DNA of 64,000 nt from a bacterium (GTDB lineage: Bacteria > Sumerlaeota > Sumerlaeia > SLMS01 > JAHLLQ01): contig JAHLLQ010000006.1 in the NCBI GenBank assembly GCA_020444065.1, positions 124,001 to 188,000 on the forward strand, in the 5' to 3' direction. Positions within the stretch are counted from its first letter, which is position 1; each line of letters begins with the position of its first letter. This document shows positions 41,472 through 59,496 of this stretch, in pieces. The notes beneath the pieces were generated by a model. It was not told the origin of the DNA. It made no database searches and worked only from the letters and a program-made list of their open reading frames with translations. A program made the translations under genes and the position numbers.

Positions 41472-42911
41472 CTAGCTTTGCGTCTTTTCCTGTTCTTCGC
41501 GTTCCCGCTCTGCGGCGGCGCGCTCTTCGAGGAGACGCTCGATCATCTTTGTGTCTTCCTCACTGATATTGTCGGTCACGCTCGCCTGCAATTGCTCGCC
41601 AAGTTTCGGGAAGGACTTGCTGACGCGTTGGATGATCCCATCAATCTCGCGCAGGTTGTCGGCGACTTCTTCGGTCTCCGCAATGATGTCGCCATCCTGC
41701 ATGAGCTCATTGGTATCTTCACCTGCAAGCAGGAAACGACGATAGATATCGCGCACGGTGACGACCGCATCGGCTTCGCGCCGGTTCAGCAACGCGACCT
41801 GGCGGCGCAGCGCCATGATGGAATCGATGCCGCGATCCAGCTCGGCCTCAAGCGCATCGGGCAGCATCTCGAGGATGTTCTCGCCGGACATGGAGAACTG
41901 ATCCGACGATTCTGCCTTCTCGCCGGCAATCGGTCCAGCCATTTGACGCGCAAGAATCTGCGACTGAGCATTGAGGCGCCGCGCCAGGGTGACGAGGCGC
42001 TGCAAACGCTGGGCGCGCTCTTCCTGCTCTTCCTCTGAGAGGGGCTCGCCGATCAGGCCTGTCGGCGCTGCTTCCTTCTTCGGAGCCTCGGCGACGGGTC
42101 GGACGGGAACTGGTGGCTCAACGCGCGGAAGGCGAACTTCGCGGGCTTCCTCGATAAGATCCGGCGGCAGGAGTCCGAGGAATTCTTCGGGGAGATCATC
42201 GAGCGAGATCAGTTCAGCCTTGGCGTTGAGGGCCGCCTCGGCCGTGACCAGCAAAAGGTCTTCCGAGTTGCCCGGCCATCTCCACTGACGGAACAGCGCG
42301 AGAACCTGGGCGTCTGCGCCGCGGGCGTTGCTGCGGCCGGTCTCTCGAGCACGCGCCGTCGCATAGCGGACCAACGCGGGAATATCCTCGGGACGTTCGC
42401 GAATCGGTGGAATGTTTACGTGATGTCCGCCAAGCAGTTCGCGCAGCTCGGGCAGAATCCCGCGCCCGCCGGGCGAATGCAGTTCGGGCTCGTGCGATGT
42501 CAGGACAATGCGCACATCGGCCTTGATTCGACGACCGAGCGTCGGGTCTTCGTAGCCGCGATCATTGACCAACTCCAGCAGCAGATACTGCAGATCGATC
42601 GGGAACTCGCGCTGTAGATTGATCACCAGCGTTCCATCGGCCGCCGTCCGCAGGTGGTCGCCCATGTTGGAAGGCAGCTTCCAGGTGATCGAGATTTTCG
42701 CAATTGGACGACTGGCCCGGTGACTGTGGTGATGGAGCAGTTTGGCGGCAAAGGACTTCTCTGTCCCCGTCTCGCCAGTGATCAGGACCGGCAAGTCGTC
42801 GTCGGCAAAGCTCTGGATCTGCTGATTGATCTCCGCCAGGGCGGCGGAGATGCCAGGAAGGAGTTGTGGAAGGTGCGCCTGGGAGACTGACACAATGTGC
42901 CTTTCGTCCAA
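41472..42911 (-). CDS. Degenerate sigma-54-activator-like AAA+ protein
   Basis: A 479-residue protein related to the central domain of NtrC-type activators, but missing key parts. A Walker A-like G-E-T-G-T-E-K-S (46-53) is present with Glu in place of the usual Gly. The G-A-F-T-G-A loop for sigma-54 contact is absent and the segment is shortened. The Walker B region reads A-D-G-T-L-V-I-N-L-Q without the D-E pair. Later blocks (P-P-I-R-E-R-P-E-D-I-P near 168-178, W-P-G-N near 212-215) are kept. Instead of a DNA-binding Fis domain, the last ~230 residues are Pro-rich then coiled-coil, rich in Arg, Glu and Ala. It therefore is unlikely to activate sigma-54 transcription. Role unknown; a nearby membrane protein and pseudo-phosphatase are neighbours. 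Confidence 0.78.
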   Translation of the reverse strand: MDERHIVSVSQAHLPQLLPGISAALAEINQQIQSFADDDLPVLITGETGTEKSFAAKLLHHHSHRASRPIAKISITWKLPSNMGDHLRTAADGTLVINLQREFPIDLQYLLLELVNDRGYEDPTLGRRIKADVRIVLTSHEPELHSPGGRGILPELRELLGGHHVNIPPIRERPEDIPALVRYATARARETGRSNARGADAQVLALFRQWRWPGNSEDLLLVTAEAALNAKAELISLDDLPEEFLGLLPPDLIEEAREVRLPRVEPPVPVRPVAEAPKKEAAPTGLIGEPLSEEEQEERAQRLQRLVTLARRLNAQSQILARQMAGPIAGEKAESSDQFSMSGENILEMLPDALEAELDRGIDSIMALRRQVALLNRREADAVVTVRDIYRRFLLAGEDTNELMQDGDIIAETEEVADNLREIDGIIQRVSKSFPKLGEQLQASVTDNISEEDTKMIERLLEERAAAEREREEQEKTQS

Positions 42912-43100: not shown

Positions 43101-43622
43101 CTACTCCTTGACGTGCAGCTTCTTCTTCAGCTCCTCGCGCTTAGCGGGGTCGATGTCCTCCTGGTCCAGCAGGTCCGCCAGTTTGGCCGCGTTCGGGGCC
43201 ACCGGGAAGTAGCCGCACTTTGGCAGGAACTCGGGGCTCGCATCGAACAGGAGTGCCCGTGGGTAGTCTCGACACATGCCCGGTCTGGAATGGTACGAAT
43301 CGCAACGACGCGTCTTCGTATCAAAATGGGTGCATTTGAAGACAAAAGCGTTCTGCCGCGGCAGTTCGGACGTCAATTCAAAGCCGTTGACGCGCTTGTG
43401 CCAAGCCAGCATCAGGCGCCTGATCACCCGCGATCGGAAGTAGATCGGGTTTGTCTGAACAACCGGCGATTCACAGCATTGGGCGCACTTCTCACACGCT
43501 CCGCCGAGCCGATAGACGGATTTCCCCTGCAGTCGCCACAGAAAGCGCGTGGCGCTCAAGTCGATCGTGAAGCAAACCAGAGCGATTCGCTTGACGATAG
43601 TTCTGATGGGCCCGTCCTTCAT
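43101..43622 (-). CDS. YkgJ-family cysteine-cluster protein
   Basis: A 173-residue protein of the YkgJ/UPF0153 zinc/iron-chelating family. Its cysteines are set as C-x2-C-x2-C-C, then C-x-H, then C-D-S-Y-x-x-R-P-x-x-C-R-x-Y-P and a final K-C-G-Y, the family pattern thought to hold a metal or Fe-S site. A hydrophobic stretch near 12-30 may be a membrane-associated helix. The ATG at 43620-43622 follows GGAAGGA at 6 bases and is preferred to a Met 16 codons earlier. It lies upstream of the AAA+ gene on the same strand, 190 bases apart, so co-transcription is possible. Confidence 0.82.
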   Translation of the reverse strand: MKDGPIRTIVKRIALVCFTIDLSATRFLWRLQGKSVYRLGGACEKCAQCCESPVVQTNPIYFRSRVIRRLMLAWHKRVNGFELTSELPRQNAFVFKCTHFDTKTRRCDSYHSRPGMCRDYPRALLFDASPEFLPKCGYFPVAPNAAKLADLLDQEDIDPAKREELKKKLHVKE

Positions 43623-43728
43623 TTGATCCTTCCGTCGTGGCTGCGCGTTACGGTCCTTGACGACTGCCACAGAGGCAAAAAGAATATGCGCGGACAGGAG
43701 ATGATCTCAAGGGGTACGCGGCGGTTCC

Positions 43729-44787
43729 ATGCAAATCCTGTACGTCAGTTCATCGGATTTGATCCGGGCGCCGATGGCGCGTGTGCTGAGCATGAAGCTG
43801 GCCGCGGAGATGAACGCGATCGGCTCGAGCTTCGAAAGCGCCGGCCTGGACGTGGAAAACGCTGCTCCTCCCCCGCTGCCGGTCATCCAGTTTCTCCGCA
43901 GCAACCGATTGAACATCTCGAAACATCGCAGCAAGCCGGTGGATAGCCCGATTCTGCGTCGCACGGATCTGATCGTCTGCATGACGCACGATCTCGCCAA
44001 GCGCGCCCGCTCGGTCGTTGGTGCAGAGCACGAGGGCAAGATCGTGATTCTGAACGAGGCGGTCGGATTTGGCCGAACGCCGCGTGAAAAGGATATCCAA
44101 GAGCCGGAGATTCTCGAGTACGGCCCGCTGCTGAGTCTATATAGCCAGTTGAAGGCCTCTGTCGGCAGGCTCTGCCGAATACTGAGCGAGGCAGACGTCA
44201 CGCCGGCCGACTTTGGTGCTGTCGAGACGGACACGATGCCGGAGCATTTCCTCGACGATCCGCATCTGCGGCATTTCCTGGCGCATTACATCCATGAGTT
44301 CATCGAACGCGCCTTCGAGCCGCCGGCAGTGAAGCAAATCCAGGAAGCCCTGGAGGCCATGGGGCGTCCGCTTTCGCGCCTTGATGTGGAGGAACTGCTG
44401 CGCACCGATCTTCGTGGGCAAGTGAAGCGCACGCACGATGGATGCTGGGAAATCGATGCGACAGCCGCTCGGGAAAAGGAAGAGCAGGCCCGTAAGGAGC
44501 GCGAGCAGAAGAAGGCAGAAGAAGCGCGCCGTGCCCGGGAGAAGGCCGAGCGCGAGAAGGCCGCCCAGGAACAGGCCAACATGAGTATCGACGAGGCGCT
44601 CGATATCCTCTCGGTCACGATGCAGACGCCGCGCGAACAGGCTCAGAACACGTATCGTAAGCTGCTGATGCGGTACCACCCCGACAAGTTCCACGATGAC
44701 GAAGACTTCCGCAAGATGGCCGAGTCGAAAACCAAGCGCGTCAACATCGCGTGGGGGATGCTGAAGGATCGCCTGCCGGCGGGTTGA
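43729..44787 (+). CDS. Pseudo low-molecular-weight phosphatase fused to a J domain
   Basis: A 352-residue fusion. Residues 1-150 match the low-molecular-weight tyrosine phosphatase fold (I-L-Y-V near the start, I-R-A-P-M-A, S-x-G-L, then an R-T-D-L-I-V-C-M region). The catalytic P-loop, normally C-x5-R, reads S7-S-S-D-L-I-R13, so the nucleophilic Cys is Ser; the general-acid D-P is E-P. Hence it should not act as a normal phosphatase. Residues ~155-250 are an unfamiliar helical part, followed by a Lys/Glu/Arg-rich coiled coil (~255-290) and a C-terminal J domain (~290-352) with the H-P-D motif. J domains stimulate Hsp70 ATPase, so it may recruit a DnaK. I do not know this architecture from a described family. 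Confidence 0.82.
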   Translation: MQILYVSSSDLIRAPMARVLSMKLAAEMNAIGSSFESAGLDVENAAPPPLPVIQFLRSNRLNISKHRSKPVDSPILRRTDLIVCMTHDLAKRARSVVGAEHEGKIVILNEAVGFGRTPREKDIQEPEILEYGPLLSLYSQLKASVGRLCRILSEADVTPADFGAVETDTMPEHFLDDPHLRHFLAHYIHEFIERAFEPPAVKQIQEALEAMGRPLSRLDVEELLRTDLRGQVKRTHDGCWEIDATAAREKEEQARKEREQKKAEEARRAREKAEREKAAQEQANMSIDEALDILSVTMQTPREQAQNTYRKLLMRYHPDKFHDDEDFRKMAESKTKRVNIAWGMLKDRLPAG

Positions 44788-56204: not shown

Positions 56205-58682
56205 CTACGGCATGGGCGGCGGGGGTGGCATGTCCGGGTCTTCGTCCCCGTGGTCGGGACTCAGGTCGACGTCGTCCCAGCGGGCCGGGCCGGGCTGCGG
56301 GGCTTCCCGAATAGTCGGCGGATCGAAGTCATTGTAGTCGCGGTTCGGCTCGTCGATCTCGGCATCAGGCTCGGGCGCCTGTCGAATAGTGGGAGGATCG
56401 AACTGGTCGTAATCCGCGTCGGGATCCACGTACTGAGCATTCGTTTGCTCGATCCGATACGGCGACTCTTCAATTTCCGGGTCTATCGGGGCCGGCTCTT
56501 CGTGTTGCGATTCGGGGCGTTCGATCTGGTAGGGCGACTCCTCGATTTCCGGGTCTATGGGCGGGACCGGCGCGGGCGATCCGGGCGAGAATGGCGGAGG
56601 AGTCATGGTTCCCTTGTCAGCCTTGCGCGCTGGTCGTCGCGTCGGCTTGGGAGGCAGGTTCGCGCGCTTGGGCTTTGGAGGCAGGGGCGTCTTTGGCTTC
56701 GGCTGGGCATCCTTCGAGGACTCGGCTGCAGGCGGCAGCGGAGGCTCGTAGGGGGGCGCTTCCTCAGGTTCGAGACCGACCTGGAGATCTTCTTCCTCCT
56801 CTTCCACCGGCGCGGGGGTTGAAACCCCACCCGGGTTCGATGGCGGGAGCGCGAAGCCATCGAATTCGCGATTCAGCGCCAGATGGAGCTCGTAGTTCTC
56901 CTGATAATCCTGCAGCAGTTCCTGAATTTCCGCCTCGAGCGTATCGACCTCGACGTCTTTTTGGGCTTCGATCGCGAGATCGAGCTTCAGCAGACCTTCC
57001 TTCAGACGCTTCAAGTCTTCGTCGGTCATCGCGTCGCCGACGGCGGCGATTGTGCGATTCGCGAGATCGGAGAGGCGCGCGGCCCGCGCGCGGCGATCCG
57101 CGAACCGGACGAAGTCCCTGTCCTCATCTTCGTGCGCGACGGCATCCTCGACGAGCTTCTCAACTTGCTTCCGATCGCCACCGATCTGCCCGTATTCCTC
57201 AACGACTACGCCCGTTTGCTGTCCGGTCGTCATATCGGTCGCGGTGACGCTCAGAATGCCGTTAGCGTCGATCGAGAAATGCACATCGATTTCAGGAAGT
57301 TCCTTCGGCGCCGGTGGGATTCCGACGAGGCGGAACTTTGCGAGCGAGTGGTTGTTCGAAGCCTTCTTGCGTTCGCCCTGCAGCACGTGAACAAGCACGC
57401 TGGTCTGGTTGTCCACAACCGTGGTGAATTTGCGATTGGCCTCGCAAGGAATCGTCGAGTTGCGCGGGATCAGTTCGCGGAACACGCCACCGGCGAGTTC
57501 GATGCCGAGCGTCAGTGGCGCAACATCAAGCAGGAGAACTTCGCGCAGCGCGCCGGAGATCACACCGCTCTGGATGGCAGCGCCCGCACCAACAGCTTCG
57601 TCCGGATTGATGGATCGATTCGGTTCACGGCCGAAGTACTCTCGCACGATTTCCTGCACGCGCGGAATGCGAGTAGAGCCGCCGACAAGGAGGACTTCCT
57701 CCAAGTCACGCGGCGTTAGATTCGCGTCCTTCAGCGCGCGCTTGCAGGGCTCGATCAGGCGCTGGAAGATGGGCTCCATCAACTCATTGAATTGCTGGCG
57801 GGTGACGTCGCGCTGGAAGTGCTTCGGCCCATGCGAATCGGCCACGATGAACGGCAGAGAGACGGTGGTACTCGTCAGGGACGAGAGCTCGCACTTCGCC
57901 TTCTCGGCGGCCTCGTTGATACGCTGGATGGCCTGGGAATCCTGTGTCGGATCGATGCCGGTTTCCTGCAGGATGTTGTCGCAAAGTTCTTGATAGAAGC
58001 GACGATCGATGTCATCGCCGCCCAGATTGTTGTCGCCGTTCGTCGAAAGGACTTCAAAGATGTCCTTGGAAATCTGCAGGATTGATACATCGAACGTGCC
58101 GCCACCGAAGTCAAACACAGCAACGCGGCCTTTGCGTTCGCGTTCTAGACCGTACGCGAGCGCGGCGGCCGTCGGTTCATTGATGATTCGGAGGACGGAA
58201 AGCCCTGCCATTTCCGCTGCAGATTTTGTCGCCGTACGCTGCTGGTCGTTGAAGTGCGCAGGAACCGTAATGACGACTTCCTGCACGTCCTCGCCGAGAT
58301 AACCTTCAGCAACGATGCGAAGGCGATCGAGAATGTCGGCGGAGACCTCTTCGGGGCGCAGACGGGCGCCGCCCTCCAATTCGACACCGGCCATTCCATC
58401 ATCCAGTTCGACGACCTTGAATGGCATCTCATCGAGGAATTCTGCCAGTTCGGCGTAGCGCTTGCCCATCAGTCTCTTGATGGAACGGATGCAGCGATGG
58501 GGCTGGAGGAGCGATTGGCGCTTCGCGAGATTGCCGACGATGATTTCATCATCGCTTTTGTAGAAAACGACGGAGGGAGTCGTCTTCTGGCCTTCGGAAT
58601 TGGGAATGGTCTCGACGCGCTGGCCGTCAAGGAAGGCAATCACCGAGTTTGTCGTCCCCAAATCGATCCCAATTGTCCTCAT
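56205..58682 (-). CDS. DnaK-like Hsp70 with long Pro/acidic C-terminal tail
   Basis: An 825-residue Hsp70. Residues 1-380 are the ATPase domain (G-I-D-L-G-T-T-N-S, then V-F-D-F-G-G-G-T-F-D and G-G-S-T-R-I-P), ~385-500 the substrate-binding beta domain with L-G-I-E, and ~500-610 a helical lid. From ~612 a tail of ~214 residues follows that is rich in Pro, Glu, Asp and Lys, with repeats of I-D-P-E-I-E-E-S-P-Y (twice) and F-D-P-P-T-I-R (twice). Canonical DnaK is ~640 residues and has a short, different tail. The gene starts 13 bases after a J-TPR gene. It is probably a specialised Hsp70 with its own partner, not the general heat-shock DnaK. Confidence 0.9.
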   Translation of the reverse strand: MRTIGIDLGTTNSVIAFLDGQRVETIPNSEGQKTTPSVVFYKSDDEIIVGNLAKRQSLLQPHRCIRSIKRLMGKRYAELAEFLDEMPFKVVELDDGMAGVELEGGARLRPEEVSADILDRLRIVAEGYLGEDVQEVVITVPAHFNDQQRTATKSAAEMAGLSVLRIINEPTAAALAYGLERERKGRVAVFDFGGGTFDVSILQISKDIFEVLSTNGDNNLGGDDIDRRFYQELCDNILQETGIDPTQDSQAIQRINEAAEKAKCELSSLTSTTVSLPFIVADSHGPKHFQRDVTRQQFNELMEPIFQRLIEPCKRALKDANLTPRDLEEVLLVGGSTRIPRVQEIVREYFGREPNRSINPDEAVGAGAAIQSGVISGALREVLLLDVAPLTLGIELAGGVFRELIPRNSTIPCEANRKFTTVVDNQTSVLVHVLQGERKKASNNHSLAKFRLVGIPPAPKELPEIDVHFSIDANGILSVTATDMTTGQQTGVVVEEYGQIGGDRKQVEKLVEDAVAHEDEDRDFVRFADRRARAARLSDLANRTIAAVGDAMTDEDLKRLKEGLLKLDLAIEAQKDVEVDTLEAEIQELLQDYQENYELHLALNREFDGFALPPSNPGGVSTPAPVEEEEEDLQVGLEPEEAPPYEPPLPPAAESSKDAQPKPKTPLPPKPKRANLPPKPTRRPARKADKGTMTPPPFSPGSPAPVPPIDPEIEESPYQIERPESQHEEPAPIDPEIEESPYRIEQTNAQYVDPDADYDQFDPPTIRQAPEPDAEIDEPNRDYNDFDPPTIREAPQPGPARWDDVDLSPDHGDEDPDMPPPPPMP

Positions 58683-58695
58683 AATTGCTCACCCA

Positions 58696-59496
58696 TCACT
58701 TCTTCTGGCCTTTTTCCAGGAGGCTTCCGAAGACTTTCGAGAAGAATCCCTTCTTCGAATCCTCTTCGTCCTTCATGAATCCCAATCGCAGTTTCGCGCG
58801 TTCGTTGGTCGGATCCCAGCGCAAGACATCCTGGTAAAGCTCCTTCGCCTTGCTGTGGACGCCGGCCATCTCGTGAATCTCTGCCAGAACCAACTTGAAG
58901 TCCAAGCTGTACGGATCCATCTCACAGGCCTTCTGCGCGTGCTCGACGGCCTTTGTGAAACTACCGCGTGCCTTCATGATCGCCTGTGCGTATTTCAGGT
59001 GGTATTGCGCATCGGAATCCGGGTCGTTCTTCACGGCCGCTTCGAAGAAGCTCAACGCCTGCTTGATATCATCCTGCTTCATCATCTGCATGCCGCGGAC
59101 GAAAGCCTTCTGTGCCATGGCTTTCTTCTGTGCACGAATCTCGGCGTCACCGATGCGAGGCATATCGCCCGACAACGCGGACGAACTCGAGTCCTCCGAA
59201 CTGGCTTTCGGCTTGCGAGGCGCCGGAGCGGGAGCGGATGCCGGGGGGTCGCCGCCAGCCGAGCGGCCGCGAAGCTTGGCGTCGTACTCCTGGCGCTTCC
59301 GAGCGTCCTTGAGCGTGTTGTAAGCTTGAGAGATCAGCGCGAGATCGCTGGCGTTCTTGGACGCCTCCTCGGGCGAACTCGCTTTGTCCGGGTGCAGACG
59401 GCGGGCCAGGTCGTAATAAGCCTTCTTGATCTCGCGCTCCGGTGCGTCGCGAGAGATCCCTAAAAGGCGATAATAGTCGGCTTCGTTACTCGGCAT
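58696..59496 (-). CDS. J-domain protein with TPR repeats
   Basis: A 266-residue cochaperone. Residues ~5-75 are a J domain with Y-Y-R-L-L-G-I, the H-P-D motif (R-L-H-P-D-K) and A-Y-N-T-L. A Pro/Ala/Ser linker (~78-110) follows, then ~125-245 carry helical TPR-like repeats (A-L-S-F-F-E-A-A-V-K-N-D-P-D-S and Y-Q-D-V-L-R-W-D-P-T-N). No Zn-finger or client-binding C-terminal domain of classic DnaJ is present, so it is a type III J protein. It is the first gene of a two-gene unit with the downstream Hsp70 (13 bases), so it probably feeds that chaperone alone. Confidence 0.87.
   Translation of the reverse strand: MPSNEADYYRLLGISRDAPEREIKKAYYDLARRLHPDKASSPEEASKNASDLALISQAYNTLKDARKRQEYDAKLRGRSAGGDPPASAPAPAPRKPKASSEDSSSSALSGDMPRIGDAEIRAQKKAMAQKAFVRGMQMMKQDDIKQALSFFEAAVKNDPDSDAQYHLKYAQAIMKARGSFTKAVEHAQKACEMDPYSLDFKLVLAEIHEMAGVHSKAKELYQDVLRWDPTNERAKLRLGFMKDEEDSKKGFFSKVFGSLLEKGQKK

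Follow-up and report, generated by a model that had tools for sequence, protein, structure and literature searches.

The window, a 64,000-nucleotide stretch of bacterial DNA, encodes on its forward strand a 352-residue protein (43729–44787; ATG at 43729, TGA at 44787) that joins a low-molecular-weight phosphatase (LMWPTP) fold lacking its catalytic cysteine to a winged-helix-like domain, a linker and a C-terminal J domain. From sequence and predicted structure, we regard this fusion protein as probably a class C J-domain co-chaperone, in which the dead LMWPTP/YwlE-type domain and the winged-helix domain would recognise a partner that the J domain passes to DnaK. The earlier note on this DNA had described a phosphatase-like domain fused to a J domain, and both Pfam matches indeed score above their curated cut-offs. 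The AlphaFold2 model, built with nine orthologues as input (mean pLDDT 87), divides into four stretches, three folded domains and one linker: an α/β phosphatase domain at residues 1–152, a helical/winged-helix domain at 178–242, a 40-residue helix at 244–283 and the J domain at 287–345.

Domain architecture and the altered active site

The phosphatase domain (residues 1–152; 43729–44184) matches the Pfam family LMWPc over residues 3–143 with an E value of 1e-10 and 42 bits against a cut-off of 23, and is modelled at a pLDDT of ≈93. The phosphatase-like fold proposed for the N terminus is upheld by the predicted structure, since the first three Foldseek matches of the AlphaFold model in the PDB are all YwlE (4etn, 4kk3 and 4kk4), with target TM-scores of 0.91–0.92 and an rmsd of 1.7–1.8, at a sequence identity of ≈20–22%. 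Entry 4kk4, the C7S form of YwlE, is also the best match in a profile search with this domain. The P-loop, S7-SSDLI-R13 (43747–43767), aligns to C7-TGNTC-R13 of YwlE, with serine in place of the catalytic cysteine and the arginine retained, as the earlier note had claimed. Its reading of a change from Asp-Pro to Glu-Pro is equally borne out by the alignment of D-I-Q-E125-P to D115-V-L-D118-P of YwlE, in which Glu125 (44101–44103) stands where YwlE has its general acid, Asp118.

These features hold throughout the fusion family. Ser7 and Arg13 are invariant in all 10 members, including one that is split over two contigs, and among the nine full-length members that we aligned Pro15, Met16 and Arg18 are invariant as well; positions 8, 9 and 11 vary, and position 125 is Glu, Pro, Arg or Ala and never Asp. 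The signature of active LMWPTPs, C(X)4CR(S/T), is missing from the family, with Ser7 at the position of the nucleophilic cysteine in every one of the 10 members. The alignments support the view that the domain is inactivated, as an LMWPTP fold without the nucleophile Cys and the general acid Asp. The invariance of Ser7 and Arg13 beside variable positions 8, 9 and 11 nevertheless suggests a pocket that is under selection despite the loss of catalysis by the LMWPTP route.

Between the phosphatase and J domains lies a winged-helix domain (residues ≈172–243; 44242–44457) that is conserved in the fusion family and was absent from the earlier note. Predicted alone, it reaches a pLDDT of 92.9 in AlphaFold2; it lies outside every Pfam and NCBIfam match, and in Foldseek it comes closest to winged-helix domains, those of IclR, Zur/Fur and TM1602 (TMq 0.6–0.7). 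The charged coiled coil that had been proposed as the link to the J domain stands only in part. Residues 244–284 (44458–44580) are charged and modelled as helical in the window protein, but the stretch is Pro- or Gly-rich in the orthologues and has no invariant column; we therefore read it as a variable linker and rule out a conserved coiled coil as a functional part.

The J domain (residues 287–347; 44587–44769) is the least variable part of the fusion family and matches Pfam DnaJ over residues 292–347 (E 9.3e-8; 32.5 bits, cut-off 27.8). Its HPD motif at residues 317–319 (44677–44685) is intact, in agreement with the earlier claim, being invariant in the nine full-length aligned orthologues and present in the split tenth. 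The protein lacks the layout of a class A or B DnaJ, in that the J domain is C-terminal and no CTD is matched in Pfam or NCBIfam. The best NCBIfam match of the J part is DjlA, at 31.9 bits against a cut-off of 162 and covering the J part only, and Pfam finds no TerB match in the fusion protein, the N terminus of which is occupied by the LMWPTP domain.

Distribution of the fusion and origin of its phosphatase domain

A search for the architecture across genomes, which the earlier note had called for, found orthologues in 10 of the 12 genomes sampled from the same order, 38–46% identical to the window protein and all from two families (f1 and f2). The recurrence of the same architecture in 10 genomes rules out a chance or assembly fusion. 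The fusion is absent from both genomes of genus g4 in the order (88–91% complete), and a search of the remaining 28 genomes of the phylum (40 genomes; the phylum is small) and of ≈490 genomes of other phyla, ≈345 from several phyla and 146 from one more, gave no full-length relative. In the latter 146 genomes, J domains occur only with other N-termini. A viral or plasmid origin was set aside, as viral contigs and plasmids yielded no relative of the fusion. The phosphatase parts of the family form one clade (100/100), and the main split follows f1 and f2 in one tree, while a second tree leaves one member unresolved; this pattern broadly agrees with vertical descent from an ancestor of the order. 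Apart from this family, the genome searches turned up a TerB-J protein, other unlabelled N-termini with J domains, and three frames of 352, 285 and 341 residues in large genomes of another phylum (L158, L159 and L160), in each of which a low-complexity linker joins an N-terminal domain without assignment to a C-terminal J domain that is close to the fusion's own.

Genomes that encode the fusion also encode a canonical CMGNICRSP phosphatase and a separate YwlE-like protein with the Cys and Thr11 intact (YwlE, 89 bits). The dead domain is therefore not simply the decayed only copy of a phosphatase, an explanation that we discarded. Trees set the fusion's phosphatase domain beside a basic-tailed YwlE-like family (89/100), a placement on a long stem that is not decisive, and the AU test does not reject a grouping with the canonical LMWPTPs instead (p 0.15). 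A join to X_L100 in the first tree was flagged as a long-branch join. The domain may derive from one of the basic-tailed, YwlE-like LMWPTPs that occur in this class.

Most genomes of the class encode one such YwlE-like LMWPTP, whose long basic tail is rich in Lys, Ala and Pro (G000:C12:6320–7042, L082; relatives L012–L015, L017, L018, L020, L021, L023, L025–L027, L031, L041–L059 and L088–L096). In this group Asp takes the place of the catalytic Cys throughout family f6, and Ser does so in f4, f11 and f12, which amounts to at least three changes on the tree; the Arg and usually the Asp-Pro are retained. McsB is present in genomes whose basic-tailed protein has lost the Cys. The nucleophile of this family, a likely arginine phosphatase, has been lost repeatedly.

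Proposed mechanism and its alternatives

We favour a co-chaperone with a client-selecting dead phosphatase on the grounds that the fusion is a conserved unit, that it is kin to YwlE and that McsB is present in the phylum. As sequence and model indicate, the phosphatase domain folds and retains an anion-binding loop with Arg13 but can form no cysteinyl-phosphate intermediate; it would therefore bind without turnover. The partner might, more speculatively, be a phosphorylated or otherwise anionic protein, and conceivably, as the preferred case, either a component of the McsB system or a protein that this system has phosphorylated on arginine. By analogy with its family, the J domain with its HPD would stimulate ATP hydrolysis by a DnaK, onto which the partner would be loaded.

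The P-loop position X5 sets substrate preference, Thr favouring phosphoarginine and Ile phosphotyrosine (PMC8001253). In the fusion family this position is Leu, Val, Ile, Arg or Gln, which points to no single ligand, and the Thr of YwlE-type phosphoarginine recognition is not found; as both this Thr and Asp118 are lost, the known mode of arginine-phosphate recognition is not conserved. In addition, Asn10 of the P-loop is replaced by Asp in eight of the nine aligned members and Ser14 by Gly or Ala, changes that may weaken phosphate binding. Together with the failure to retain residues specific for phosphoarginine or phosphotyrosine, and with the fixed docking domain used by many J proteins, these replacements would fit a dead phosphatase that serves as a docking or regulatory module without a phospho-ligand, the J domain recruiting DnaK to remodel a complex whose members might be, for example, the active YwlE-like protein, McsB or a complex unrelated to phosphorylation. 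A pure docking surface, however, would have no need of Ser7 and Arg13, which close off the anion-binding loop on either side and are invariant in 10 of 10 members, and we consider this explanation rather unlikely, if a serious one.

The setting in which a phosphoarginine ligand would arise is widespread. PF00217 identifies McsB in 35 of the phylum's 40 genomes, including 20 of the 20 good ones; the PF00217 control matched no control genome, although B. subtilis has McsB, and is thus uninformative on McsB absence. The gene order mcsA-mcsB-clp(C) occurs in the four genomes of the order examined (G000, G001, G007 and G008). In G000, profile searches place the operon at G000:C1:923071–927480 (L124:5071–9480), where McsB scores 348 bits against the NCBIfam protein arginine kinase, under its curated cut-off (385). 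The gene before it encodes McsA (122 bits, below the cut-off of 210), and the one after it an Hsp100 as large as ClpC, with Clp_N and two AAA modules. According to a passage in PMC9112008, citing Trentini 2014, a phosphatase trap mutant captures arginine-phosphorylated proteins.

A narrower form of the favoured reading would make the fusion a natural phosphoarginine reader that routes McsB-marked proteins to refolding by DnaK, in competition with degradation by ClpCP. In favour of this idea are the kinship with YwlE, the serine at position 7 and the phylum-wide presence of McsB; the loss of Thr11 and Asp118 argues against it, as does the genomic setting, in which we found nothing to link mcsB, clp or dnaK specifically with the fusion, McsB being phylum-wide and the fusion order-wide. 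We think it doubtful that the fusion is such a reader. With the mcsA-mcsB-clp(C) operon in the same genomes, the fusion allows a direct test of whether a phosphoarginine mark can lead to refolding as well as degradation.

The winged-helix fold, with its best Foldseek matches among transcription factors, raises the alternative of a chaperone-coupled regulator: the middle domain would bind DNA or RNA, the dead phosphatase would respond to a phospho-signal, and DnaK, brought in by the J domain, would tune the regulator. We judge this improbable, given that the domain is acidic in the window protein (9 K+R against 15 D+E), that the best Foldseek E value is 0.02 and that winged helices often make protein contacts. 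We know of no LMWPTP that uses Ser as the nucleophile for turnover, and the general-acid position of the fusion family varies as described above. A changed chemistry, in which Ser7, Asp10 and Arg13 would form a different active site with, for instance, a transient phosphoserine as in YwlE C7S, is for these reasons very hard to credit, even with Ser7, Arg13 and (in 8/9) Asp10 conserved and with a PDB title, that of 4kk4, according to which the C7S serine can carry phosphate.

Candidate Hsp70 partners and comparison with known systems

If the fusion is a co-chaperone with a client-selecting dead phosphatase, its Hsp70 could be one of several, as the genome (G000) contains five long Hsp70 matches along with five J domains. 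The DnaK that the earlier note had placed at 56205 is real (56205–58682, reverse strand; Pfam HSP70, 680 bits) and is a protein of 825 residues with a Pro/acidic tail of ≈200 residues. It is one of the five long Hsp70 matches and one of several possible partners of the fusion; nothing that we found ties the two together, and the adjoining J-TPR protein (58696–59496, reverse strand; Pfam DnaJ and TPR) is the more obvious dedicated partner of this DnaK. The gene neighbourhood was set aside as a guide to the partner, with nothing common to it across the order: the divergent neighbour, a CxxCxxCC (YkgJ-type) metal-binding protein (43101–43670, reverse strand; PF03692), lies next to the fusion in four f1 relatives and not in f2. 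Farther along, at 41472–42911 on the reverse strand, is a sigma-54-activator-like AAA protein that matches Sigma54_activat over 56 residues only, with the lid domain present and a long C-terminal part without an assigned kind.

Which clients reach Hsp70 is decided by J proteins. Should the favoured reading be true, a pocket for a phospho-residue can provide the basis for targeting to Hsp70, and the architecture suggests a former enzyme turned selector of clients for a chaperone. Should the fusion prove to read phosphoarginine, it would give protein-arginine phosphorylation a reader arm that leads to Hsp70 and not to a protease.

J proteins that combine assorted N-terminal modules with a C-terminal J domain are already known, as in DjlA and TerB-J. 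A limited search of domain libraries and papers returned no report of a pseudophosphatase joined to a J domain; the phosphatase-derived module on a J protein, in an architecture shared across one order, may be new. The fusion resembles the class C co-chaperones DjlA and TerB-J in its C-terminal J domain behind an unrelated N-terminal module; it differs from DjlA in that the module is a dead phosphatase plus a winged helix and not TerB, with no membrane anchor among the features listed from Pfam and the model. Its YwlE-like domain is shared with the basic-tailed LMWPTPs, which, unlike the fusion, usually have the Cys and Asp-Pro intact, carry a Lys/Ala-rich tail and have no J domain. As in pseudophosphatases in general, a phosphatase fold that has lost its nucleophile would have been kept for binding. 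YwlE itself is the best match in both sequence and structure, with the LMWPTP fold and the P-loop Arg13 in common, whereas the fusion is without the catalytic Cys, Thr11 and Asp118 and has the additional winged-helix and J domains. The Trentini trap for arginine-phosphorylated proteins is reportedly a YwlE mutant, and Ser7 of the fusion family is, at that position, the natural equivalent of the YwlE C7S mutant captured in 4kk4.
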